A stretch of DNA of 64,000 nucleotides, taken from positions 186,001 to 250,000 of the forward strand of contig BPJE01000001.1 of the NCBI GenBank assembly GCA_026004455.1, in the 5' to 3' direction. The position numbers and the translations under genes are program-made. The notes beneath the pieces were generated by a model. The model was not told the origin of the DNA. It made no database searches and saw only the letters and a list, made by a program, of their open reading frames with translations. The stretch's first letter is position 1, and every line of letters begins with the position of its first letter. This document shows positions 2,402 to 26,947 of this stretch, piece by piece. This DNA is from Patescibacteria group bacterium. Lineage in GTDB: Bacteria > Patescibacteriota > Microgenomatia > UBA1406 > GWC2-37-13.

Positions 2402-3532
2402 ATGATTGACTCAGGACCATCACTTGCGGAACTTGGAGTACACCAATCAAAGGTACAACCGATCGATCTTCAAGACTATTCTAAAAAAGAAGCAAGTTTG
2501 AGAAAACTTCCCGACACCCGAATCATAAAAGAAGGAGATGAAGAATTTTTGGAATTTTCATTTAGTAACGGCTTTAAAGTAATAACTAACACCTTCGAAG
2601 AAAGTGTCAAGTTTTCTAAGGAAGGAGATTCTCAAAATAAATATTTTCGTGTTCGAAAATTCTTGGTAAATTTCCAAGGAAGAGACGTTGATCTTCTTGA
2701 CAACGAAACTGCTAGAATTTGTGATCACTTTATTTCTTTCAGAGTAAGCACAATTGGCTCACATTTCAATAGACAGGTAGTAGTTGTTAACAATGAAAAC
2801 CAAGAAATAGAAAGATATAAAAGCAATGTCGTAATTTATGTTCCCATAAACAAGGAAAGAACAGACTACGATGCAGAAGAAATGTTATATGAATGGGTGC
2901 ATGAGCTCGGTCACGCTATCGATCTGATTGATTCAAAAAGAAAATTTCGTAAGGTAAGTGCTGAAGAAGAAAAGTACGAACTAGTAAGCAACGAAAAATT
3001 AAATGGTGTTAAAGCAGAAAGAAATGCTCATGCAATTGGATTAAAAATTCTTAAGGGAATTAAAAGATTATACGGACCACACCAAAGTATTTCTGAAGAA
3101 CGATATGTAAATAACGTAGTCGAACCGTCATTACACTCCCGCCAGTTTGTTAGTATGGACTTTCGTTCTGCTTATTCCAATCAAGACAGAGCATTATTTA
3201 GAGACGAAGAAATAGAAATAAGGAAAAATGGAATAACTGAAGAAGCTGACAGAGAAATATTCCAAACAAAATTTAGGCGAGATAAAAATATTTCTACACT
3301 TTCAGCAAGACTTGGAGAAAACGCAGCAAAAATATATGATTCTTTAGTCAAAGCATGGGTAGATGAAAATATTGAGAAAATGGAAAAATTGAACAGAATT
3401 TTTGCCAAAGATGGCCTAGATAAACCTAAAACAAGAGAGGAACTTGTTAGAGAGTTAGAGCTCGAATACCACTCAGCAATTTTAAGAAAATACGGAATAC
3501 CATGGGAGCAATTTTCAAGTTTATTAAAATAG
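2402..3532 (+). CDS. Putative zinc metalloprotease (HELGH motif)
   Basis: 376 residues from the ATG at 2402; an upstream in-frame extension would run through the inverted repeats and is rejected. The segment EWVHELGHAID contains the zinc-binding HExxH motif at residues 167-171. About 40 residues later KAERNAHAIGL offers a Glu as possible third ligand, giving a gluzincin-like layout. The N-terminal domain and the charged helical C-terminus are not recognised; no signal peptide or membrane helix is visible. Codon use is visibly richer in C and G than in neighbouring genes, and hairpins flank the gene on both sides, suggesting horizontal acquisition next to tRNA-Gln. Substrate unknown. Confidence 0.65.
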   Translation: MIDSGPSLAELGVHQSKVQPIDLQDYSKKEASLRKLPDTRIIKEGDEEFLEFSFSNGFKVITNTFEESVKFSKEGDSQNKYFRVRKFLVNFQGRDVDLLDNETARICDHFISFRVSTIGSHFNRQVVVVNNENQEIERYKSNVVIYVPINKERTDYDAEEMLYEWVHELGHAIDLIDSKRKFRKVSAEEEKYELVSNEKLNGVKAERNAHAIGLKILKGIKRLYGPHQSISEERYVNNVVEPSLHSRQFVSMDFRSAYSNQDRALFRDEEIEIRKNGITEEADREIFQTKFRRDKNISTLSARLGENAAKIYDSLVKAWVDENIEKMEKLNRIFAKDGLDKPKTREELVRELELEYHSAILRKYGIPWEQFSSLLK

Positions 3533-6948: not shown

Positions 6949-8325
6949 TTAAAAAAATTTAAGTAATTCTTTTTTTGCTTTTTCTCTTTCTTTTTCAAAG
7001 ATTCTTAGCGTTTTTCGGCGCAGATTTGAAGGTAAGGTATATGAGGAATGAATTCCAAAATAGTTCTCAAAAAGTTTAAGCTTCCTTTTTTCTAAATCTT
7101 CTAAATAAATTTTTTTAAATTTCTCAATTAACTCTCCCTTAACACCTCTTTTATAAGCCAAATAAAACGCCAGTAGCTGTTCATCTTTCCCCAACCCGCT
7201 TCCTCCATAAGCGCTTTTACCAATACCATCATCAAAAATTACATAATATTTTTCCTTTTCTAAAGAAAGCATATCGTCATTATAAAACCCAACTTTTTCT
7301 GGGCTAATTCCTAGAGCTTTTAAAAAAATATATATCCGAGCACATTTTTCACAAACTCCACACCATCTTTTTTTCTTTGCCTGTGGTTCCTCTGAAAAAC
7401 ATGACATCTGAAATTGTCCAAATTCTGGATAACGACGATGAAGAATGTAAGTAATAAAAATCTCGTTAATTGGCTCAACAAGACTACCAATATGAGTCTT
7501 TATTGAAAAAAGTTGAGGAATATCTTGTAAAAGTTGCATACCAGAAACGCTTTGTTCAAAAACAGGGTTAACAAAATAATCTTCTTTATCTTTTAAATAA
7601 AAATTACAACTCTGTTCATTACCAAAAAATAAATATTTTGCTTGATAATAAAAATAATAAGGTACCAAAATAAACGCATATTGAGAAAGAATAATATCCC
7701 AACCCCAACCTAAATCTTCTACTTGCCTTAAACGTCCAATTGATAAAGGAAAAAACTCGATTTCCTCACCAATTTTTTTATAGAACTTTTCTGCTAATCT
7801 TTTTTTGTGATAATTCTCATAAATACTTTGTGGTTCTTTTATAAATATTGGAATAACTTTTACCTCTAAATCATTAAGCAAAGCATAAGTTAATAAACTA
7901 TCTTTTCCAAAAGAAAAAAGAAGTATAGCCTTTTCTTTTAATCTTTTTTTCATTTTTTTTCCTAAATAAGATGAATTTAGTGCTTTAAACTGATTTTGAA
8001 AATGAATATTATAAAATTTTTTTAAAAGTTCAGAAGTTCTAATATCAGATCGTTCAAAAATATTCATTGGTAAAGAATAAAAAAGCATTTTAAAAAAAAC
8101 TGGTTCAACTAGTGGATGAGAAAAATGATAAACTAAACTTTTGTTTTCAACAAAAGGAAGATGCCAAGTGCTAATATAACTTAAGCCATCAGCAAATAAT
8201 TTATGCAAAGATTTTGGAAATTTTTCCCATATATAACTAGGATATTCAATTTGATATTTTTTATTTTTTATTTTAATTTCTACTCCTGTTTTTTTTACCT
8301 TTCTAAAAATATGAATTATCTCCAT
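6949..8325 (-). CDS. PP-loop ATP-binding protein, possibly MurL-like epimerase
   Basis: 458 residues. The segment ILLFSFGKDSLLTYALL (about residues 133-149) is a PP-loop (SGGKDS-type) motif of the adenine-nucleotide alpha-hydrolase superfamily. A Cys cluster WCGVCEKC lies near residue 325, followed by DDGIGKSAYGGSG. Size and the combination of PP-loop plus Cys cluster recall MurL, the UDP-N-acetylmuramoyl-Ala-Glu epimerase used by some bacteria instead of a glutamate racemase, but I cannot confirm this without a search. It stands alone between the cupin gene and gltX. Confidence 0.5.
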   Translation of the reverse strand: MEIIHIFRKVKKTGVEIKIKNKKYQIEYPSYIWEKFPKSLHKLFADGLSYISTWHLPFVENKSLVYHFSHPLVEPVFFKMLFYSLPMNIFERSDIRTSELLKKFYNIHFQNQFKALNSSYLGKKMKKRLKEKAILLFSFGKDSLLTYALLNDLEVKVIPIFIKEPQSIYENYHKKRLAEKFYKKIGEEIEFFPLSIGRLRQVEDLGWGWDIILSQYAFILVPYYFYYQAKYLFFGNEQSCNFYLKDKEDYFVNPVFEQSVSGMQLLQDIPQLFSIKTHIGSLVEPINEIFITYILHRRYPEFGQFQMSCFSEEPQAKKKRWCGVCEKCARIYIFLKALGISPEKVGFYNDDMLSLEKEKYYVIFDDGIGKSAYGGSGLGKDEQLLAFYLAYKRGVKGELIEKFKKIYLEDLEKRKLKLFENYFGIHSSYTLPSNLRRKTLRIFEKEREKAKKELLKFF

Positions 8326-8453
8326 TTTTTTTATTATATATCTTAAAATTAAAAAAATATTATAAAATAATTTGTTTTTATTTTATAAAAATTAATTTTT
8401 GATTAAAAAAATGAAGATTTAAGAAATTAAAGCTTTTTAATATATTTTTCATT

Positions 8454-14931: not shown

Positions 14932-15609
14932 ATGTTAAAAATAAAATCAATAAAAAACAAAACTTTTCTTGGTATTTTTGCTCATCCTGATGATGATGCT
15001 TTTGGTCTGAGTGGAACATTGATAAAACTTAATCAAAACAATAATCAAATTTATGAGATTTTTATTACCAGTGGTGACGCAGGCACTAACCAATTAACTG
15101 GAAAAAAAGAGAAAAATTTAGGAGAAAAAAGAGAAAAAGAAGCCCTTGCTGCTGGAAAAATTTTTAATATAAAAAAAATTTGGTTTTTAAGATACAAAGA
15201 TGGATCACTTTCCAATAACCTTTATCATCAAGTCGCTGAAAAAATTGAAAAAATAATAAAAAAGATCAAACCTGACTTCCTTTTAACTTATGAATGGCGC
15301 GGAGTCTCCGGACATATTGATCATATTTTTACTTCAATGGTCACTAGTTTTTTAGCACAAAAATATCATCTGACTGTTTTTTATTATGCTAGAATCAAAA
15401 TTAACAAAAAAAGACCTCCATATTTTATTTTTTTTCCACCAGGATATAACAAAAAAGACCTTGATCTGATTGTTGATGTCAGTGATGTATTTGATAAAAA
15501 AATAAATGCAATGAAATGCCATCAAACCCAAATCGAAGATGCAAAAAGAATCATCGAATTTTATAAAGATTTACCTAAAGAAGAAGGATTTTTTATTAAG
15601 AAGTTTTAA
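14932..15609 (+). CDS. PIG-L family deacetylase
   Basis: 225 residues from the ATG at 14932. The zinc motif FAHPDDDAFG (near residue 17) and SGHIDHIFTS (third ligand His) define the PIG-L/LmbE family, which removes acetyl groups from N-acetylglucosamine-type substrates. An in-frame ATG at 14902 adds ten residues, but the chosen start sits 6 nt after a TATAAA box and gives the usual short N-terminus. It is divergent from the phosphatase-kinase fusion and overlaps the end of cas6 by 4 nt. Confidence 0.85.
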   Translation: MLKIKSIKNKTFLGIFAHPDDDAFGLSGTLIKLNQNNNQIYEIFITSGDAGTNQLTGKKEKNLGEKREKEALAAGKIFNIKKIWFLRYKDGSLSNNLYHQVAEKIEKIIKKIKPDFLLTYEWRGVSGHIDHIFTSMVTSFLAQKYHLTVFYYARIKINKKRPPYFIFFPPGYNKKDLDLIVDVSDVFDKKINAMKCHQTQIEDAKRIIEFYKDLPKEEGFFIKKF

Positions 15610-16331
15610 ATCATTTCTTTTATCATAATCTGCCCCAATCCCATCGTTGTTTTCATCCCTAACCCAAAAAACTCCAAAGCAAAAATATCAGGATTTTTTT
15701 CTTTAAGCTTGATCTCAAAATCTCCAACTGCTCCAATAAATTTGCCAAATGGATTAACATCCACTTCTTTTGATTTAAGATTAATCTTACTGATGACAAA
15801 CTCTGGTAATTTAAATATCTCTTTTCCATAAATCTCTTGTTGTTTTTGTAAAAATGAATTTTTTATTAGAGATACTGTTGGAATAATCTCAAAATTTTCT
15901 CCTGATTTAAAAACTATTGGTGATAAAGTGATAATCTTTAGTCGATCAGATCTTAATTTTTCATCATTAGGATAATACTTGATCATTTTTTGAATATTTT
16001 TTGGTAAATTTTTTTCTGGAGTCAGATAAACTTTTTTTATGCTGAATTCTTTTTCAATATTGATTTTCTTTTGATTAAACAAACTTGATAAAAAAATTGA
16101 AAATACTTCATCATTTAAAAAAGAAAATCTGATAAAAATCCTCTCTTCTTTTAAAAAAGGCGAGGTGATGGTAAAGGGCTTTTGTTTGTTTTTTTGATGA
16201 TAATGAGTGGCTTTTTCTTCATCTATTTTTTTTAATTGATTGATAAAAAAACTATATACTTGATAACCAAGAAAATTTTTCCTCACATAATCCCTCTCAC
16301 CTTCAAGCTCCAAAACAATTGATCGAAGCAT
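15606..16331 (-). CDS. cas6: CRISPR endoribonuclease Cas6
   Basis: 241 residues with a double ferredoxin-like layout; the C-terminus GLGMKTTMGLGQIMI is the glycine-rich loop of Cas6. It should cut the 35-nt repeat transcript 8 nt from its 3' end to leave the 5' tag ATTGAGAC on crRNAs. It lies 9 nt downstream of cas2 in a cas1-cas2-cas6 operon read leftward. Confidence 0.88.
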   Translation of the reverse strand: MLRSIVLELEGERDYVRKNFLGYQVYSFFINQLKKIDEEKATHYHQKNKQKPFTITSPFLKEERIFIRFSFLNDEVFSIFLSSLFNQKKINIEKEFSIKKVYLTPEKNLPKNIQKMIKYYPNDEKLRSDRLKIITLSPIVFKSGENFEIIPTVSLIKNSFLQKQQEIYGKEIFKLPEFVISKINLKSKEVDVNPFGKFIGAVGDFEIKLKEKNPDIFALEFFGLGMKTTMGLGQIMIKEMI

Positions 16332-16340
16332 AATTATAAC

Positions 16341-16640
16341 TTAAATAATATCATAACTTTTTAGATTTTGCTTTGGATAAAGTTGAATTTTTGAAAAACA
16401 GTTTTTACAAAGTATCACAAATCCAATTTTGTCATCTTTATTTTTAATCTTTTTAAAATATTCAATTATTCTTTTTTTGTCATCTTTTTCCAAAAAGCAT
16501 ATAAAAACACTCTTTTGCACCCTAAATCCATACTGTTTTAGAAATTTGACCAACTTATTTCTCGTTTTTTGATCCTCAATATCATAAAAACAAAGATAAT
16601 TTTTTAATTTTTTATTTAAATTAATCTTTTTCATTTTCAT
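16341..16640 (-). CDS. cas2: CRISPR adaptation endoribonuclease Cas2
   Basis: 99 residues. FYDIEDQKTRNKLVKFLKQYG contains the conserved N-terminal Asp after strand 1 and the Cas2 helix; RVQKSVFICFL is the second family block. With Cas1 it forms the integrase that inserts new spacers. The start overlaps the end of cas1 by 20 nt, implying translational coupling. Confidence 0.92.
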   Translation of the reverse strand: MKMKKINLNKKLKNYLCFYDIEDQKTRNKLVKFLKQYGFRVQKSVFICFLEKDDKKRIIEYFKKIKNKDDKIGFVILCKNCFSKIQLYPKQNLKSYDII

Positions 16641-17571
16641 TTAGATATTTAATGATTTGTCCTAACCGACTTTCAATCCGATTTATTAATTTAAAATTAT
16701 TTACAATTTCTTTTTGAAATAAATTAAAAATTTTATGTAAAGCTTCTTTTTTTATCAAAACTAAATCATCTTTTTTTTCAAAATCTTCTATATCTATCAT
16801 TTTTAGATTGATTAGTTTTAAAATAATTTGATCAATATTTGGTCTAAACTCCTCCATAATATCTAAACTTAGATTTTCTCTTTTATATTTATTTTCATGA
16901 AAAAAACCAACATAAGGATCAAGTGAATTTGCCACAATAAAACCAGTAATAAAATTAACAAGTAAAGTATAGCCAAAACTTAAAATTGAGTTAATCTCAT
17001 CTTTAGGAGGATAGTGATTTCGACCAAAAAATCTAAATTTTTTATTTAAGATAATTTCTGGAAAAATACTAAAATAGCAAGAAGAGTATGATCCTTCTAA
17101 TCCTCTTAAAGTTTCAATTGAACTAACAAAATCAATTTGCTTTAATAACTTTTCTGATTGTTGTTTGAAAGTATCGTATAAGTCTATTTTATTTTGATTT
17201 TTGCAAAAAGAATAAATTAGACCTCTTTGATTTTTAAATTTTTCTTTAAGGATTATTCTTGTTAAAAATATTCTCTTTTCTTCTTGTTTAAAGATTTGCC
17301 ATTGCTTATATTTTAAAAACACTCTCTCTTGATCAATAGAAATCAAAGAGCCAATATAATCACCTTTAGATGATAAAAATAAAACTCGGATTTTATTTTT
17401 AAGACAAAAATTAATTGCTTGAGTTGTTAAAAAAACATTCCCAAAAATAAATAAATTTTCGACCAACTTTTGTGGATAAGTTGACAAAATTTTCCCTTCA
17501 GGATTTTGAATATAAAATTCACCCTCCTTTATACCTATTTTTGCTCCTTGTGTTAAAACATATAAATTCAT
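16621..17571 (-). CDS. cas1: CRISPR adaptation integrase Cas1
   Basis: 316 residues. The N-terminal beta domain (MNLYVLTQGAKIGIKEGEFYI) is followed by the helical catalytic domain with the three metal ligands visible as GLEGSYSSCYF (Glu), GFFHENKYKRENLSLDIMEEFRP (His) and its DIMEEFRP (Glu/Asp). It is the first gene of the leftward adaptation operon. Its upstream sequence is the terminal, degenerate CRISPR repeat, so its promoter must lie in or next to that repeat; a TATAGT box sits 6 nt before the ATG. Confidence 0.95.
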   Translation of the reverse strand: MNLYVLTQGAKIGIKEGEFYIQNPEGKILSTYPQKLVENLFIFGNVFLTTQAINFCLKNKIRVLFLSSKGDYIGSLISIDQERVFLKYKQWQIFKQEEKRIFLTRIILKEKFKNQRGLIYSFCKNQNKIDLYDTFKQQSEKLLKQIDFVSSIETLRGLEGSYSSCYFSIFPEIILNKKFRFFGRNHYPPKDEINSILSFGYTLLVNFITGFIVANSLDPYVGFFHENKYKRENLSLDIMEEFRPNIDQIILKLINLKMIDIEDFEKKDDLVLIKKEALHKIFNLFQKEIVNNFKLINRIESRLGQIIKYLNENEKD

Positions 17572-17591: not shown

Positions 17592-20450
17592 AACTAAATC
17601 CCTTAATTGGTTTTAGATATTCAGACCTTCAAAGTAGATAATGAATATGTAGAATGTTTTTAGTCTCAATCCCTTAATTGGTTTTAAATATTTAGACAAG
17701 ATAATCAAACAATCATAGAAAGGCTTTCAGAAATACAGTCTCAATCCCTTAATTGGTTTTAAATATTTAGACAAATTAATAAATTTTTAATTGTTAAAAA
17801 AGATTTATATATAGTCTCAATCCCTTAATTGGTTTTAAATATTTAGACATATGGTAATTATGAAATATTACAGCCTTTTAAATTTTATAGTCTCAATCCC
17901 TTAATTGGTTTTAAATATTTAGACTAGCCGATGAAGGATTGAAAACTGCTAACTCTAACAATCTGTCTCAATCCCTTAATTGGTTTTAAATATTTAGACC
18001 TAAACCGCTTACCTCATCAAATTTACTAACTGATGGTCTCAATCCCTTAATTGGTTTTAAATATTTAGACATGCGGTTGGAAAGATAAATAATATCTCAT
18101 TTATCAAAATTGTCTCAATCCCTTAATTGGTTTTAGATATTCAGACTTTCATAATTGAAATATTGTTGGATTACTTTTTTATAGGTCTCAATCCCTTAAT
18201 TGGTTTTAGATATTCAGACTTAAAAAGCCAAGTCCTTATTTGACAGGATATGATTTTCTTGTCTCAATCCCTTAATTGGTTTTAGATATTCAGACAAGCC
18301 TGCGAGGTTAATTTTTTAGATACTGATATTATAGTCTCAATCCCTTAATTGGTTTTAGATATTCAGACTGTTTTTGTTGCTGGAACGTTTTTATTAGCTC
18401 CAGATGATGGGTCTCAATCCCTTAATTGGTTTTAGATATTCAGACCTGATGGCACGGCTACTTTTGAAAATGTTTCAGAATACTTAGTCTCAATCCCTTA
18501 ATTGGTTTTAGATATTCAGACATTATATTGGAAAAACTCCGATTGAAATTAATGATATTTGTCTCAATCCCTTAATTGGTTTTAGATATTCAGACCAAAT
18601 AAAGAGATGATTGTTTTTGTGTTAACTTTGATTTTGTCTCAATCCCTTAATTGGTTTTAGATATTCAGACTCAATCGATCAATATTCAATCACTCGCTTG
18701 ACGGAATACAGATAACGTCTCAATCCCTTAATTGGTTTTAGATATTCAGACAAACTTTATTAACAAATGGCTAAACAAATATTGGTCTCAATCCCTTAAT
18801 TGGTTTTAGATATTCAGACCTTATTTTATCAATATATTAACAAAGGTCAAATAACTGAGTCTCAATCCCTTAATTGGTTTTAGATATTCAGACTTTATAA
18901 GAGGCAATAATTAAACCATTAAATGAGGTTAGTCTCAATCCCTTAATTGGTTTTAGATATTCAGACTAATAATAAAAAATAAATCTATTTATAAGCAAGA
19001 GTAAAGTCTCAATCCCTTAATTGGTTTTAGATATTCAGACCCAAAAAATTCTTCTTAAAAAACCGCTTGATGAGATAATAGGAAAGTCTCAATCCCTTAA
19101 TTGGTTTTAGATATTCAGACAAAAATTGTAGACACCTTCAAGGGTCTTGAGATAATTTTAGAGTCTCAATCCCTTAATTGGTTTTAGATATTCAGACTTT
19201 ATAAGAGGCAATAATTAAACCATTAAATGAGGTTAGTCTCAATCCCTTAATTGGTTTTAGATATTCAGACTATCGATCAAATAAAATATCTTGAAGAATC
19301 AAAACGTCTCAATCCCTTAATTGGTTTTAGATATTCAGACGATATTCTCTCAAAAAATCAAAGGGAGGAGGTGAAAAAGATGGTCTCAATCCCTTAATTG
19401 GTTTTAGATATTCAGACCTAAAAATAGAGATAGAACTTATAATGATGATGAGGTTGGTCTCAATCCCTTAATTGGTTTTAGATATTCAGACAAAAAACAT
19501 ATGAGACAATCCTAAACGTAGGGTCGTATGTCTCAATCCCTTAATTGGTTTTAGATATTCAGACCAAATATAATGTCTCGTTTACCGATGTTAAAAGAAA
19601 AGTCTCAATCCCTTAATTGGTTTTAGATATTCAGACCTATCTATAAAATTTGGAATGATAGTATTTTGGAAATTAGAAACGGTCTCAATCCCTTAATTGG
19701 TTTTAGATATTCAGACTTTATTTGCTGATGATGTTAATCGTGCGAATAGTGAAGTCTCAATCCCTTAATTGGTTTTAGATATTCAGACCAAATCTTTGAA
19801 AATTATAAGGTAAAGACAATATTGTATTAGTCTCAATCCCTTAATTGGTTTTAGATATTCAGACTTAAATTATATGAGATATCAATATATAGGAAAAGAA
19901 AAAATGTCTCAATCCCTTAATTGGTTTTAGATATTCAGACGTATTTTGATCGTAGCAACAAAGAAACCTTTTTAAATGCCAGTCTCAATCCCTTAATTGG
20001 TTTTAGATATTCAGACTTTAATGCGTAGGATTTTTAATAATCCCTTATGGCTTGAGTCTCAATCCCTTAATTGGTTTTAGATATTCAGACTTTATAAGAG
20101 GCAATAATTAAACCATTAAATGAGGTTAGTCTCAATCCCTTAATTGGTTTTAGATATTCAGACTTAATATAAGTTATAAATTACCTTAGAAGTTGTATAG
20201 TCTCAATCCCTTAATTGGTTTTAGATATTCAGACGCAAGGACGCACCGTCAATGTTTTGACGGAGGAAGTCTCAATCCCTTAATTGGTTTTAGATATTCA
20301 GACAAATTATGAGCACCACTTTGGTATAAAAAGTAAATAAGTCTCAATCCCTTAATTGGTTTTAGATATTCAGACAAATATTGAAATGGGTTTATCAAGT
20401 ATCATGCGGATTTTTGTCTCAATCCCTTAATTGGTTTTAGATATTCAGAC
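17592..20450 (-). CRISPR. CRISPR array, 39 repeats of 35 bp, 38 spacers
   Basis: I count 39 copies of a 35-bp repeat starting GTCTCAATCCC and ending TCAGAC on the plus strand, separated by spacers of 33-46 nt. The reverse complement ends in GGGATTGAGAC, giving the type I/III crRNA tag ATTGAGAC, so transcription is leftward with the leader near 20450. The repeat at 17592-17626 is degenerate (GTCTCA to AACTAA), as expected at the leader-distal end. Repeats 2-7 (17663-18070) differ at positions 25 and 31 from all others. One 38-nt spacer occurs three times (18894-18931, 19198-19235, 20091-20128). Confidence 0.98.
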
Positions 20451-20479
20451 AGTATAATATTTTTTTATTAAAATAACAA
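20451..20479 (-). promoter_or_regulatory. Candidate promoter in the CRISPR leader
   Basis: On the minus strand, TTGTTA (20474-20479), 17 nt, then TATACT (20451-20456) immediately before the first repeat. The leader between this repeat and the csm6-like stop codon is only about 87 nt. Transcription from this box would begin inside the first repeat. Read-through from the csm operon is an alternative. Confidence 0.35.
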
Positions 20480-20537
20480 TCCAAAAATTATAATTTTCGC
20501 TAATCTTCTCAAAAACCTGATTGTAAAGGTGCTTTTT

Positions 20538-21776
20538 TTAAGAGATTATCGAAACAATCTCAGATTGCGGATAATAAAAAAAATAATCATCATAATTAGT
20601 CTTAAGACCAAGATCTTTTTTTATCTTCTCCAACATCATCATTGCCTTTTTTCCATCAGACTTATTGGGAAAATAAAATCCATGACCAAAAAGACTATTA
20701 TTCCTTTTATCAATCAACTCTTTAAAATCAACAAATTTATTTTTAAAAACCTTATCCAAAACTTGGAGCTTATAACCCACCGAGCTTGGAATCAATTTAT
20801 CCTCTTTTTCTTTTTTATCTTTTAGATAAAAATTTACTTTATCAGCTAAAAAAATCAAATTCTCATCTTTTATCTCTTTACTAATCATCAAAAAAATCAG
20901 ATATTTATCCAAAAAACTCACAAAAAGAGCCAATGTCGCTGGATAATCGCCTCTTTTAAAATAAATTTTTGTTATATCATGTAAATACTTAATCTCAAAC
21001 ATTATCACCTCTAGACAATAATTTTCATCTTTTTTTAAAAGCTTTTTTAATCGCTTATACTCACTTATTAAAATATTATTCTCTTTTAAGCCGTCTTTAT
21101 TTAATTTTGGAAAATTAAAAATTAGATCATCAATTTTTTTATCTTCAAGAATGATAAAATCTCCTTGAATAAACTTTTGATAATAAACAATTAAGTTTTT
21201 CAAAAGGGAAGATTTATAAGATTCAAGGGTAAAAATATTTTTTAATATAGAGAGTGCTTGATCAAAATTAAAGTTTATCAACTGATTATTTAAATCATCT
21301 ATATACTTCTTAGTGAGCATTCTCCTTGTCACAAAACTAACTCCTTGATAATTATCCACTACTACTCCAGTAACTACATCTCTTGATCCAGTGACATAAA
21401 TCGCATCATCAACCAGATTTTCACTTACCATATAATGAAAAACTCCCGCAGCCATTGCTTTAGTACCATAAGTATAATCAAGATAGACTTTGCCTTTTTC
21501 TTCTTTGATTTTTTTTACTAATTCTTTGATATTACTTTCATCAAGGCTTTTTAAGATATATTCAATCTGATCAGGATATAAAATATCGATTTTATCAGTT
21601 GATATTTGATTGTTCTTATTAAATTGATAGATTGCTTCATAAGTTTTTAAAGATGTAGGATTGCTACTTACTAGATAAATCGCATCACTGATATTTTTTT
21701 CCTCAACAACATATTTTAAAGAAAAAAAAATATTTTTGTTTACTCCAATTGTTGAAATAAGTAAATTTTTTTTCAT
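20538..21776 (-). CDS. csm6: CARF-HEPN ribonuclease, Csm6/Csx1-like
   Basis: 412 residues. The N-terminal Rossmann-like CARF domain (LLISTIGVNKNIFFSLKYVV, ..AIYLVSSNPTSLKTYEAI.., YTYGTKAMAAGVFHYM) should bind cyclic oligoadenylate. The C-terminal helical region ends with a HEPN motif RNNSLFGH (R-x6-H) near residue 365. In type III systems Cas10 makes cyclic oligoadenylate on target recognition, and this enzyme then degrades RNA non-specifically. It overlaps csm4 by 4 nt and is the last gene of the csm operon, next to the CRISPR leader. Confidence 0.82.
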   Translation of the reverse strand: MKKNLLISTIGVNKNIFFSLKYVVEEKNISDAIYLVSSNPTSLKTYEAIYQFNKNNQISTDKIDILYPDQIEYILKSLDESNIKELVKKIKEEKGKVYLDYTYGTKAMAAGVFHYMVSENLVDDAIYVTGSRDVVTGVVVDNYQGVSFVTRRMLTKKYIDDLNNQLINFNFDQALSILKNIFTLESYKSSLLKNLIVYYQKFIQGDFIILEDKKIDDLIFNFPKLNKDGLKENNILISEYKRLKKLLKKDENYCLEVIMFEIKYLHDITKIYFKRGDYPATLALFVSFLDKYLIFLMISKEIKDENLIFLADKVNFYLKDKKEKEDKLIPSSVGYKLQVLDKVFKNKFVDFKELIDKRNNSLFGHGFYFPNKSDGKKAMMMLEKIKKDLGLKTNYDDYFFYYPQSEIVSIIS

Positions 21777-22648
21777 AAGTCAAAATAATAAGGTATAGTC
21801 AAAGTAATCTGAATAATCTTGTCATTTACTGCGCTTAGATTAGTCAAAATCTTACCAAAATAATCATTTTTTTCATCAATTATTAATTTAAATACCGAGC
21901 CCTCTTTTACTAATATTATCTTCTTTTTAAAAGGATTTTTCCTACCTATTTTTATCCCAAGTTTTGGGTATTTGACAAAAAAACTATAATTTAATGATTG
22001 ATATTTTTGATTTTCTTCTTTTTTAGGAACAAAAGCAGATAAATTAAGAAAATATTTGCTTGATTGAGGTAAATTAATCTCCAAGACATCAACAAGAGAA
22101 AAATTAGCAAAACCAGAAGATATTTTCTTACCAACAAAATAACTAAAAAACTCATCAAGCCAATCAATCTCAAAATCCTCAAATACTCTTAAGTAGATAT
22201 CAACTAGATTATCTTTGTAAAAAAATAAATTCTCATAAAACAAATTATTATTTTTTATGCTTACCATATAACGCCTATTTTTAAAAACCAGATTAGTCTT
22301 ATTTACTTGATCCAAAATCAATGATTTTTTTTCAATTAATTGGCTAAAAAAATCTTTGGGTAGAAAATTAATTTTTTTAAGGCTTTTTTTAAGATCTTTA
22401 TTATTTTTTGTCTCCTCAAAAAAAACTCTTTCGCTTAAAAAATCTGGATTAATTGGAAGATAATTTTTTGGGAAAATCGAAGAAAAAAGATAACCTGGAG
22501 TATCATTAACAAATCCTTGATAAAAATGATCAAAAAGATCGCTTTTCTTAATTGACAAAAAATACAAAAAAGCGCCATTAAGATGATCAGAAGTAATTGG
22601 ATTAATAATTGGTGATTTAAGTTTTAAAGTTAAAATATAGTCTTTCAT
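21773..22648 (-). CDS. csm4: Type III-A effector subunit Csm4
   Basis: 291 residues, RAMP/Cas5-like. The N-terminal pattern LKLKSPIINPITSDHLNGAFLYFL and ..YLFSSIFPKNYLPINP.. matches Csm4 (the SD-x-FP-x-G-x-LP-x-P block), and KKISSGFANFSL is the later glycine-bearing block. Csm4 holds the crRNA 5' tag and contacts Cas10. It overlaps csm5 and the csm6-like gene by 4 nt each. The order csm5-csm4 is reversed relative to the textbook csm1-2-3-4-5-6. Confidence 0.75.
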   Translation of the reverse strand: MKDYILTLKLKSPIINPITSDHLNGAFLYFLSIKKSDLFDHFYQGFVNDTPGYLFSSIFPKNYLPINPDFLSERVFFEETKNNKDLKKSLKKINFLPKDFFSQLIEKKSLILDQVNKTNLVFKNRRYMVSIKNNNLFYENLFFYKDNLVDIYLRVFEDFEIDWLDEFFSYFVGKKISSGFANFSLVDVLEINLPQSSKYFLNLSAFVPKKEENQKYQSLNYSFFVKYPKLGIKIGRKNPFKKKIILVKEGSVFKLIIDEKNDYFGKILTNLSAVNDKIIQITLTIPYYFDL

Positions 22649-23541
22649 ATTTTTTTCAAAACCACTACCCCAACTGGGTCATATGGTCTTTGTTGATTAA
22701 AACTAGTATAAGTAACTGGCTGACTGCCTGGTTTTTGATATGATCCTGATCCAAATCCCAAAGGCATCACAAGACCTTCTTCTGTTCTAATTTTTTGTCT
22801 AAACTCTTGACTAAAAGATGATAAAAATCTTTGTCTTTTCTTTTGAAAATAATCTGATTTTTTTTCTAAAAGTTCTAAGGTTTTTTGTTTTGTTAATTCT
22901 ATATTTTTATTATTTTCCCTTACAGGAAAAAACAGCTCTCCCTCAGCCTCGCCTTCAATGATTTCGGCATATGTAGGCGTTTGGGCTTTATTTTTTTTAA
23001 TATTGTATCTAGTCAACTTTTCAATCCTATTTTTAAAACTTTTAAAATAAAAATCAGTAAAACCAATCTGATTTGATATTTTATTTTGTAATTTATCATC
23101 CCAAATATTGTGCTCTCTAAAATATGCTTCAAGAAATGCTCCTTTTATTGAGCTTCCGGGAATAAAGGGAACTTCCTTTTTTAAATCCCAGTCAAAATAA
23201 CGAATAAATTTATTGATATTCACCGTCTTAACATTTAACCAATCAACATTTGGGCTTAAAGGTATTTTTTCCAAGATAAAACGATTCAACTTAAAAACAT
23301 TTTCTCGATAAAAGTTTTGAAGCTCAATAAATTTTGGTATATCTTTTTCTTTTGACAAACTTTCAACTTGTTTATCAATTACTTGTTTAAAACTTTCAGC
23401 AAATTCTGATTGAAGAATTTTTTTAATATCAAAATGATAAAAATTTTCTTTACCCAAAAAAAACTCGACTGCTGAAAAACCCTCAGCAGACTTAATGATA
23501 AGCGGTGTTATTGTCTTAATTGTAAGTTTTACTTTATTCAT
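22645..23541 (-). CDS. csm5: Type III-A effector subunit Csm5
   Basis: About 298 residues from the ATG at 23541, which overlaps the csm3 stop by 8 nt; longer upstream starts overlap csm3 too far. RAMP signatures: TIKTITPLIIKSAEGF at the N-terminus and VPFIPGSSIKGAFLEAYF (the Gly-rich PGSSIKGA motif), with SQPVTYT and a C-terminal PYDPVGVVVL. Csm5 caps the distal end of the effector and helps crRNA maturation. Confidence 0.78.
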   Translation of the reverse strand: MNKVKLTIKTITPLIIKSAEGFSAVEFFLGKENFYHFDIKKILQSEFAESFKQVIDKQVESLSKEKDIPKFIELQNFYRENVFKLNRFILEKIPLSPNVDWLNVKTVNINKFIRYFDWDLKKEVPFIPGSSIKGAFLEAYFREHNIWDDKLQNKISNQIGFTDFYFKSFKNRIEKLTRYNIKKNKAQTPTYAEIIEGEAEGELFFPVRENNKNIELTKQKTLELLEKKSDYFQKKRQRFLSSFSQEFRQKIRTEEGLVMPLGFGSGSYQKPGSQPVTYTSFNQQRPYDPVGVVVLKKI

Positions 23542-24127
23542 TTTTTTCAATTTTAACTTTTCCATAACCTCTTGATCCTGAACCACCAAGATAATCTTCT
23601 TCTAAAAGTGATAATCCTTCCTCAAAAAGCTCAATAAATTTTTTTCTTTCTTCCTCATCATCAACCTCATAAAAGCGAAAAACTACCTCAAATTCAAATT
23701 CATATCCTTTTGGCACCCTCTCAATTGGTCTAGGATTAGACTTTCCACCTCTTAATGATACTTCTGTTTTTTCCTCAGTAATTGGTTCACCTTCTTTTAA
23801 TCTTTCCCAAAGCTCTTGGCGCAAATCTTCAGAAACAAAACCATCTCTGATAAGAACAATCGTCATCTTTTTGTTATCAACTTCAGCCGATTGTCCAAAA
23901 AGCTCTTCAACCATCAAAGATTTTTCTTGATCGCCTTTATATTTCTTCTCAAGTAAAAACCTCATCTTTCCTTTAATTGATGAGCCAGGAATATATGGTA
24001 TACCACTATCAAACTCCTTAACAATTGGATTATCCATCTCGCCAATTTCAAATCCTTCTTTACCCGCGCCTATATGAAGACCGGTTAAAACCTTGATTTT
24101 GTATGTTGTTTTCACTACTTTATCCAT
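23534..24127 (-). CDS. csm3: Type III-A effector backbone Csm3 (target RNA nuclease)
   Basis: About 197 residues from the ATG at 24127, 2 nt after the csm2 stop; a TTG start five codons earlier is less likely. Signatures: VLTGLHIGAGKEGFEIGEMDNPIV, in which Asp32 corresponds to the catalytic Asp that cuts target RNA every 6 nt, then PYIPGSSIKGKMRFLL and the C-terminal GGSGSRGYGKVKI glycine loop. Multiple copies form the crRNA-binding filament. Confidence 0.9.
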   Translation of the reverse strand: MDKVVKTTYKIKVLTGLHIGAGKEGFEIGEMDNPIVKEFDSGIPYIPGSSIKGKMRFLLEKKYKGDQEKSLMVEELFGQSAEVDNKKMTIVLIRDGFVSEDLRQELWERLKEGEPITEEKTEVSLRGGKSNPRPIERVPKGYEFEFEVVFRFYEVDDEEERKKFIELFEEGLSLLEEDYLGGSGSRGYGKVKIEKNE

Positions 24128-24129
24128 AT

Positions 24130-24648
24130 TTATTTTGAACAATAACTTTTAATAATAATCGCATTTAAAAAATCTTTATATACTTTTTTAATTATTTTTA
24201 TATACCTGTCAGACTCAGAAATATTTTTTATACTCTCTAAATCAGATATTAAATCATTAGTTTTTTCAATAATAAAATTTTTGTACTTTAAAACTAAATT
24301 TTTTAATTTTAATGTTTCTTGATCCTCCCATTTTTTAATTGAATATTTATCTCCTAATTCATTCTTTTTTTGTTTATCTGCTTTTACTTTAGCGCTTTCT
24401 GCTACCCTTACTACTTGATAAGAAAATTTTAATATTGCAATTTTAAGTTGATAAATGACCGTGTCTATTGATTGATTGTTTTGTAAATTATCAATAACTT
24501 TTTTAAAAATATCGATTTGCTTTCGAACTTGAGTTTTAGCATCTAAAGGTAAAGTATTAAATTCAGAATCAAGTTCTTGTATTAAATTTAAACTATATTG
24601 TGGTTGGTTATTATTTCCAACTTTAATTGTTTTTAAATTAATTATCAT
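24130..24648 (-). CDS. csm2: Type III-A small subunit Csm2
   Basis: About 172 residues, nearly all alpha-helical and Lys-rich, without RAMP motifs; position between cas10 and csm3 identifies it as Csm2. The start MIINLKTIKV at 24648 is favoured because GGAGGTGAG, one of the few strong ribosome-binding sites here, lies 4-5 nt upstream inside the end of cas10; an ATG three codons earlier would overlap that site. The start overlaps cas10 by 11 nt. Confidence 0.75.
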   Translation of the reverse strand: MIINLKTIKVGNNNQPQYSLNLIQELDSEFNTLPLDAKTQVRKQIDIFKKVIDNLQNNQSIDTVIYQLKIAILKFSYQVVRVAESAKVKADKQKKNELGDKYSIKKWEDQETLKLKNLVLKYKNFIIEKTNDLISDLESIKNISESDRYIKIIKKVYKDFLNAIIIKSYCSK

Positions 24649-26947
24649 TCTTCTCACCTCCTTTTCTGCGTAAAAGTAAAATTAAATTAATCAAACTTTT
24701 AAAATTTTCTTTAAATAATTGATTTTCTCCATTATCTGGTACACTAAAAATACTATCAAAAAAATTTATAAATTCTTTTAATTTATCATTTTTATCAATA
24801 TCTTTTTCTAAATCTTTTTTCAGTCGATAATAATAATAACTCATCTTATAAAAGTTTACTGTTTTTTTATAATCATCCTTTTCTTCAAATCCATCGCTTA
24901 ATTTATAAAGCTTATAAAAAAATGAGGTTGAGACTTTATCAATATTTAAATTTTGTGCTTTTTCAAGAAGTTTCTGCCACTTATCAACCTCTAAACTTGA
25001 GTGTAAAAATGCAAATTGATTTTTACCATTTAATTTTGTTTTTTCTAGGTGGCTTTCTGCCTCCTCAACGACCATAAACACTGGATCATTTGGCTTCGCT
25101 AAAACTCCACCAATTGAAAAATGAATCTTTGGATTTTGACAAACAAATTTATCAAACTCTTCTTTTAAATCAAACAAAAATTCTAATATCTTCAACCAAT
25201 AACCAGTCAAAAGAAAATCATCTCCTCCTGAATAAACCAAATAAACTTCATCTTTATAATCTTTTTTTGTCTCGATAAGATAAGGTAAATAGTTTTGAAA
25301 AAAAATATTGATTCTTCTTGAAAAATGTAAAACATCAGTTAAAGTCTTATCTCCATCTCGAAAATCAAAACCATTAGTTAAAATATCTGACATACTATCA
25401 ACATCACCTTTTAGATACAAAAGCAAAGGCGCTTCTTTTTTTTCCTTAACTAAATCTTCAAATGATTTATTTTTTGGTATTGTCACTGTATAAAATAATG
25501 TCTTTGAAGGAGATAAAGGAAAATAATTTCTTTTTTGATCTACTCTATTAATTAAATTTTTGTAAGGTTTAAAAATAATCTGATTTTCGCCTTCTTCATC
25601 TGGATTATAAGAGGAAAAATCTACTTTTGAATCAGAGTCAATCATCTTGTAGACAAATGGAGTTTCTGCACCATGAGTTAAAAAATCAGACAACTTTAAA
25701 AAAGTATCACATGGCCAACATCTTTTTTCTTCATTTGATGATAGTTGCGGATCTTTGGGGTTATTGCAAAAATCACACAAACTTGAGTCATCAACCACTT
25801 GAGGAATAATATCGTTATTAATATTTTCTAATTCAAAAAATATTTGTTGATCATTAACCAATCTCAATATATCATTACCACCTGAAAAAATCATTGATAT
25901 ATTTTCTTTGTTTAATAGATAGCCTTTTCGATAATCATTGTTTCTTAAAGTAAGACCAAAACTCGTTAATAAAAACTTTTTCCACTTTAAAAGAAGTAAA
26001 TCTAATTTTTTTATTATTTCTTCATTATCCGGAAGTAAAATAATTGAATTACCACCAAAACTACTTAAAATTAATTGAGGAATTAAATCAAGATTTTTTA
26101 TAATCTCAAAATTAATTATCTCATTTAAGATCTGAACAAAAAGCGATCGACCGCGAAGAATTTTGGCAGCTTTTTTTGATTTGATATCAAAAATAAATTT
26201 TTGTATGCCAGCAATATCAAATTTAAGAATGTGAAAATTATCTCCATAATAAAGAATGTAGGCAAAAATTGTTGTCAGTTTAAGATGATCATAAAGACTA
26301 TTTAACTGATATTCATCTCTTCTGTCTTCAGGTATCTGAGTGTAAAGCAAATAAAACAAATCATCAATCGCATACATAAAATCCAAAAAGCTTCTTTCTC
26401 GATTTAAAATCCCACTAAGTAAAGTGCCAAAATTACTTTCACCTAATAAATTTTTATAACAAGCGACATTATTTAAATAATCTTTCTCTTCTTGTTTTAC
26501 TGGTAAAAATAAATCTAATTCATAAAGACCATGAATCCGATGAAGATAAAATTTTGAAGGATTAAGAGTTTTTGAATATAAAAAGCTAAAAATATCTTTT
26601 TGATTGACTTCTTCAGGATTTAGATCATTAAATTCACTTATTGTTCTTTGACTAGCTGCTGCTAGATTGTCTGCTTTTTTAATGATTTCAATTAGATTAA
26701 TAAATTCTTTTTGCTCAGTACTTAAATCTTTTTCATGATGAAGTTCTACTAATTTACTTATTAAATCAAAATCTATGTCTTTATCTTTTAAAATCAACTT
26801 GTAAGGACTATCTACTTTTTTTAAGGCAGAAAACAAAAATTTTGCTAGTTGCGAATGAGTCTCTTCAAATTTTTTACTTCGTTGAATAAATTTACCAATA
26901 TCATGAAAAAGAGAGGCAATTATAAGTTCTTTAAGAGTTTTAGACAT
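24638..26947 (-). CDS. cas10: Type III-A Cas10 (Csm1), HD + cyclase
   Basis: 769 residues. The N-terminal HD domain has SLFHDIGKFIQRS (residues ~14-19), compatible with the ssDNA nuclease site. A zinc module CDFCNN...CWPC lies around residues 395-415. The second Palm domain holds LVYSGGDDFLLTGYW (GGDD near residue 580), intact for cyclic-oligoadenylate synthesis. Both activities therefore look functional. It is the first gene of the csm operon, behind a consensus promoter. Confidence 0.95.
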   Translation of the reverse strand: MSKTLKELIIASLFHDIGKFIQRSKKFEETHSQLAKFLFSALKKVDSPYKLILKDKDIDFDLISKLVELHHEKDLSTEQKEFINLIEIIKKADNLAAASQRTISEFNDLNPEEVNQKDIFSFLYSKTLNPSKFYLHRIHGLYELDLFLPVKQEEKDYLNNVACYKNLLGESNFGTLLSGILNRERSFLDFMYAIDDLFYLLYTQIPEDRRDEYQLNSLYDHLKLTTIFAYILYYGDNFHILKFDIAGIQKFIFDIKSKKAAKILRGRSLFVQILNEIINFEIIKNLDLIPQLILSSFGGNSIILLPDNEEIIKKLDLLLLKWKKFLLTSFGLTLRNNDYRKGYLLNKENISMIFSGGNDILRLVNDQQIFFELENINNDIIPQVVDDSSLCDFCNNPKDPQLSSNEEKRCWPCDTFLKLSDFLTHGAETPFVYKMIDSDSKVDFSSYNPDEEGENQIIFKPYKNLINRVDQKRNYFPLSPSKTLFYTVTIPKNKSFEDLVKEKKEAPLLLYLKGDVDSMSDILTNGFDFRDGDKTLTDVLHFSRRINIFFQNYLPYLIETKKDYKDEVYLVYSGGDDFLLTGYWLKILEFLFDLKEEFDKFVCQNPKIHFSIGGVLAKPNDPVFMVVEEAESHLEKTKLNGKNQFAFLHSSLEVDKWQKLLEKAQNLNIDKVSTSFFYKLYKLSDGFEEKDDYKKTVNFYKMSYYYYRLKKDLEKDIDKNDKLKEFINFFDSIFSVPDNGENQLFKENFKSLINLILLLRRKGGEKNDN

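Follow-up and report, generated by a model that had tools for sequence, protein, structure and literature searches.

How does one and the same spacer come to stand three times, at separate positions, in a single CRISPR array? The question is raised by the type III-A array of a Patescibacteria group bacterium (GCA_026004455.1), which lies in a 64,000-nt stretch of DNA (contig BPJE01000001.1, positions 186,001-250,000; GC 27%) that was analysed as a whole and is called the window here. The array carries three identical copies of the 38-nt spacer TTTATAAGAGGCAATAATTAAACCATTAAATGAGGTTA, and the genome to which it belongs is a draft that counts 894,682 bases and 5 contigs, with a completeness of 92 and a contamination of 2.4. 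The original prediction for this locus had located the three copies and had stated that the spacers next to them differ. Both statements are exact when the array is re-read (Table 1): the left-hand neighbours (spacers 17, 21 and 33) and the right-hand neighbours (spacers 19, 23 and 35) are all different and each of them is present as a single copy. With up to 2 mismatches allowed, the 20-nt head of the spacer is found at these three places only in the window, where the chance expectation is 0.01, and the complete spacer has only these three sites in the whole genome when up to 3 mismatches are allowed. Among the 36 distinct spacers of the array there is no second one that is duplicated. The triplication is real and uncommon, yet of a known kind. 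About 3% of spacers are counted as duplication candidates in the SpacerPlacer survey (PMC11472070).

The type III-A locus and the polarity of its array

The locus is encoded on the minus strand of the window and is nearly complete. Cas10/Csm1 is present together with Csm3, Csm4 and Csm5, as are Cas6 and an adaptation module of Cas1 and Cas2 that adjoins the array, the latter being placed between the csm/CARF genes and cas1-cas2-cas6. The scores of Csm4 and Csm5 fall under the NCBIfam curated cut-offs, and the probable csm2 gene is assigned by position only, its product showing no match in NCBIfam, PADLOC or the PDB sequences and nothing notable in Pfam. As the Cas1 model takes up nearly the whole of the Cas1 protein, there is no space in it for a fused reverse transcriptase. 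The array has 39 repeats, each 35 nt in length, and its 38 spacers, which are numbered here from the left, measure 33-46 nt.

Table 1. Positions in the window of the type III-A genes, the CRISPR array and the array elements discussed in the text
Feature	Position	Strand	Remarks
cas6	15606..16331	-	
cas2	16341..16640	-	
cas1	16621..17571	-	316 aa; Cas1 model covers residues 3-287
CRISPR array	17592..20450	-	39 repeats, 38 spacers; crRNA strand minus; repeat GTCTGAATATCTAAAACCAATTAAGGGATTGAGAC
Terminal (oldest) repeat, degenerate	17592..17626	-	three changes close to the outer end; otherwise majority variant
Repeats 2-7	17663..18070	-	six-repeat block; two linked changes, G25A and C31T
Spacer 9	18220..18260	-	31/41 in portal gene of phage contig L050
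Triplicated spacer, copy 18 from left	18894..18931	-	21st from leader
Triplicated spacer, copy 22 from left	19198..19235	-	17th from leader
Spacer 29	19717..19753	-	37/37, exact protospacer in portal gene of tailed-phage contig L050 (= L054), 3156-3191
Spacer 30	19789..19829	-	35/41 in terminase gene of L050
Triplicated spacer, copy 34 from left	20091..20128	-	5th from leader
Leader region	20451..20537	-	between CARF gene and array; GCACCTTTACAAT block, common to G018 in a similar place
CARF-HEPN accessory protein, Csx1/Csm6-type	20538..21776	-	
csm4	21773..22648	-	E 1.1e-35
csm5	22645..23589	-	E 2.7e-16
csm3	23534..24142	-	TIGR02582, E 7.2e-53
probable csm2	24130..24657	-	175 aa; assigned by position only
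cas10/csm1	24638..26947	-	TIGR02578, E 6.7e-108

Four features place the leader at the right-hand end of the array, namely the degenerate repeat at the left end, for which the array of the sister genome G018 has a counterpart, the conserved block to the right of the array, the order of the genes, and the end of the minus-strand repeat, ...ATTGAGAC, which we take to be a typical crRNA 5' handle; a search of Rfam gave no match. From this polarity follow the distances of the three copies from the leader, and with acquisition at the leader end the copies would date to three separate times. The array also carries what looks like a trace of its own rearrangement. The two linked changes of repeats 2-7 are absent both from the older repeat 1 and from the younger repeats 8-39, which without recombination would require two exact reversions. 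This suggests, as the simplest explanation of the repeat pattern, a past recombination within the array or an imported block.

What the array targets

The original prediction had proposed to search phage and metagenome databases with the triplicated spacer, but no target of it was found in IMG/VR, among phages and plasmids or in the genomes of relatives. IMG/VR yielded no protospacer with the exact 38-mer, the central 22-mer, the left 20-mer or two degenerate peptide patterns. The right 20-mer matched a crAss-like-looking contig in IMG/VR (no family call), but this match stops at 20 nt and was rejected as due to chance. BLAST against phages and plasmids with the whole array as query gave best E values of 0.3 and 0.2, and an Acinetobacter phage match over the triplicated spacer (E 0.9) was rejected, as it extends into the repeat. 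To the phage records that were retrieved, which are possibly fragments, the spacer is at most 66% identical. Of the 373 genomes in a sample of the class, the source genome itself is the only one that contains the spacer, the 372 others having no site with up to 3 mismatches, and searches of genome contigs with the array repeat and with Cas1 gave no match. Nor does any spacer of the array have a convincing match outside the array in its own genome, the best being that of an A+T-rich spacer (E 0.002).

Other spacers of the array do have a recognizable target. A search of IMG/VR with the degenerate pattern LFADDVNRANSE, derived for spacer 29, matched five contigs (L049-L052 and L054-L057 denote the same four contigs, and L053 and L059 one contig), and a terminase-based search added one further contig. 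The contig with the exact protospacer, L050, is 6,167 bp in length and encodes a portal protein, a head maturation protease, a major head protein and a terminase according to PHROGs. Spacer 30 matches it too, whereas the match of spacer 9 is barely above chance, with an identity of 0.756 as compared to a maximum of 0.737 among 868 shuffled or reversed controls. In the array of G018, spacer 15 has a 35/42 match in a contig related to L050. To judge by these matches, one tailed-phage lineage has been sampled repeatedly by the host, with spacers 29, 30 and weakly 9. The strong recurrent pressure from one element that had originally been offered as one reading of the triplicated spacer is thus not shown for that spacer, for which the searches gave no protospacer, whereas recurrent targeting of one phage lineage is shown by these three. 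The triplicated spacer may be directed against a different region of the phage or against a different element.

A coding target had been suspected from the peptide EAIIKPLNEV in one frame of the triplicated spacer. This hint is a poor one: an in-frame TAA precedes the peptide inside the spacer, all three frames of this (plus) strand contain a stop, and the sole fully open frame is that of the opposite strand, TSFNGLIIASYK. The idea that spacers 18 (IIKPLNEV) and 20 (LLKKPLDEI) derive from homologous genes was dropped, the pair ranking 32 of 1891 and lying under the top values of the null. In G018, the peptides encoded by spacers 1 and 11 resemble each other. For the array as a whole a codon score, which was trained on 21 genes of the window and was correct for 530 of the 600 38-mers taken from ten further genes as a test, places the coding strand opposite to the crRNA in 29 of the 36 distinct spacers (p 0.0003), and the same holds for 16 of 20 spacers in G018 (L017:6973-8505) and 5 of 6 in the genome G036. 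The triplicated spacer, with a score of -3.3, is among the seven exceptions, and the match of spacer 30 to its target gene is not in antisense orientation. The crRNAs thus appear to be antisense to genes, as RNA-targeting type III immunity requires, as a tendency only. The bias is seen although Cas1 carries no reverse-transcriptase fusion, and it may reflect either selection or biased capture.

One capture or three

The original prediction held that a simple block duplication is not sufficient here, and we agree, because one block duplication does not yield six unique neighbours. It went on to require either that one protospacer was acquired repeatedly or that conversion took place inside the array. 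These are the two serious options, but the prediction did not consider duplication with loss of the passenger spacers, nor did it consider that sibling arrays may recombine, and both fit the identical ends of the copies better than independent acquisition does. We favour, with moderate confidence, the explanation that the spacer was acquired once and that repeat-to-repeat recombination then copied it to two more positions. The type III-A adaptation module would have captured the spacer a single time, and the stored spacer-repeat unit would have been copied to two further positions through the identical 35-nt repeats, by unequal exchange or template switching, either within the single array or from one sibling array to another. 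The passengers would have been removed later by ordinary deletions between repeats, or they may never have been common to both arrays. The latter would be the case if the siblings diverged right after the triplicated spacer, following a sweep of the acquiring cell, and their arrays were joined later: the triplicated spacer would then be the last one common to the descendants of that cell, and unequal exchange from its unit could join the segments 19-21, 23-33 and 35-38, each of which is headed by it. Such a course of events would remove the problem of the passengers, but it would still require the breakpoints to lie at that unit. As for the consequence, we infer that transcription followed by Cas6 cleavage would yield the same crRNA from each copy, which would add to the dosage of one guide and keep one copy close to the leader.

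What argues for copying is, first, that both ends are the same in all three copies even though the spacers of this array range from 33 to 46 nt; on the array's own length distribution, three equal lengths have a probability of 0.018 when one end is fixed. Independent re-captures behave differently. In Sulfolobus islandicus, 37 of the 41 reported pairs of spacers re-captured from one site are offset (PMC2946923), and in G018 spacers 3 and 18 (L017:7158-7194 and 8283-8326) overlap by 23 nt and differ in their ends. By their sequences the latter two represent a clean case of independent re-sampling, and they are the only re-sampled pair in the related arrays. Exact duplications in 18 other arrays of the same phylum (247 spacers) number three, all of them copies of neighbouring units: spacers 7-8 in L042 and 1-2 in L062, both in tandem, and a two-unit block in L046. 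In this count L061 and L062 are one contig with one array, L037, L047, L060 and L063 gave no array, and a two-spacer repeat in L046 was left out. Of the 805 duplication candidates listed for reconstructed arrays in Table 2 of PMC11472070, 695 are classed as duplications and 43 as rearrangements, while reacquisition is called for 8, independent insertion for 7 and other events for 52. The island formed by repeats 2-7, with its two linked changes, favours copying as well. On the other side, no neighbour has been copied along, the 373 genomes of the class sample include no relative with this array, and any of the three copies can just as well be explained as an insertion next to the leader in its day. 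The absence of copied neighbours makes a simple tandem or block copy less likely but leaves copying followed by loss unaffected. The repeats that border the three copies are identical, and their flanks thus show no trace of conversion.

But could three separate captures of the same protospacer, each at the leader end, not have given the pattern? This would call for a persisting element and for a hot spot both of whose ends are fixed by prespacer processing, and every new capture would refresh a guide whose earlier copies stand far from the leader. Two extra insertions at the leader end would suffice and would account for the unique neighbours and the missing passengers alike, and repeated sampling of a single phage lineage is in evidence in this array. 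One run of a simple simulation, with parameters of our own choosing and a block mean of 2.7 taken from PMC11472070, points the same way: lone non-adjacent triples arose in 0.01-0.04% of arrays under tandem block duplication and block deletion, making up about 6% of all triple-bearing arrays at a duplication/deletion ratio of 0.03, as compared to 0.04-0.27% of arrays when reacquisition accounted for 1-6% of insertions. These frequencies lean to reacquisition as long as the identity of the ends is left aside. However, it is exactly the ends, three times identical despite the spread of spacer lengths, that speak against repeated capture, as do the offsets reported from Sulfolobus and the small share of reacquisitions and independent insertions in the published table, and we regard it as possible but rather unlikely. 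The lines of evidence are thus opposed, and the constancy of the ends, together with the rates in print, outweighs the passenger-free pattern only moderately.

An error of assembly, by which reads were merged from strains that carry the spacer in differing contexts, or by which a repeat was mis-resolved, would find an opening in the 108-nt exact repeat that the spacer forms with its two flanking repeats at all three places, and in a draft in 5 contigs with the completeness and contamination given above. A mis-resolved repeat, however, usually results in a contig break or a permutation of blocks and not in added copies. Moreover, all six unique junctions are present (17-A, A-19, 21-A, A-23, 33-A and A-35, where A is the triplicated spacer) on a contig of at least 412 kb, and we consider such an artefact improbable. 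Even less credence can be given to a recycling of the spacer, in which Cas1-Cas2 would re-integrate next to the leader a spacer that was released from the array or copied from its crRNA or from the DNA of the array. It would combine exact ends, leader-end positions and the lack of passengers, which neither of the simpler models gives on its own, yet Cas1 has no reverse-transcriptase fusion, 35 of the 36 distinct spacers have not been recycled, and we met no precedent in our searches of the literature on spacer acquisition and duplication, in which the idea itself was not searched by name. That recycling renews a leader-distant guide with little or no help from an invader, or, in a milder form, that a site with fixed ends was captured at three times, is likewise very unlikely in our view.

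Spacer copies in other systems

Duplication, rearrangement and re-acquisition of spacers have all been described (PMC11472070, PMC8047081, PMC2946923, PMC10457644). The SpacerPlacer survey and a review (PMC11472070, PMC8047081) treat, as here, an identical spacer that occurs more than once per array, and favour repeat copying or slippage; different from the duplications that they describe, the present case has three copies, none of them adjacent, and no passenger spacer copied. Sulfolobus islandicus (PMC2946923) resembles it in that one element has been sampled repeatedly into non-ancestral positions, but the pairs reported there are offset and nearly all lie across strains, whereas here identical ends occur in one array. 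In our searches of the literature on spacer acquisition and duplication we met no three-fold, non-adjacent and passenger-free case, which is not to deny that one exists elsewhere, and on hot spots of the S. epidermidis III-A system nothing was found.

The combination of type III-A and CasY/Cas12d systems that is reported for the small CPR genome of a Roizmanbacteria member (PMC6509639) is also present in our source genome. Its second system (contig C3, 43600-63500; L032:5691-11711) comprises Cas1, a Cas12d/CasY that is split across two ORFs (930 and 217 aa) and resembles the fragmented CasY in that report, and an array of 30 repeats of 25 nt with spacers of 18-20 nt. Neither the string 'duplicat' nor the string 'Csm' is present in the text of PMC6509639, so that spacer copies are not discussed there under that word. 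In the genome G023, a CasY-type short-spacer array (L046:8736-9242) contains a duplicated block of two spacer units, one copy of which is slightly different.

Through the exact protospacer of spacer 29 a tailed phage is tied to this genome, which is small and low in GC, and the link may help in assigning hosts to such phages. CRISPR arrays serve as dated infection records, and three separated identical copies of one spacer are a warning that position need not equal date. The ends of the spacers are one measurable feature by which copying can be separated from re-capture.
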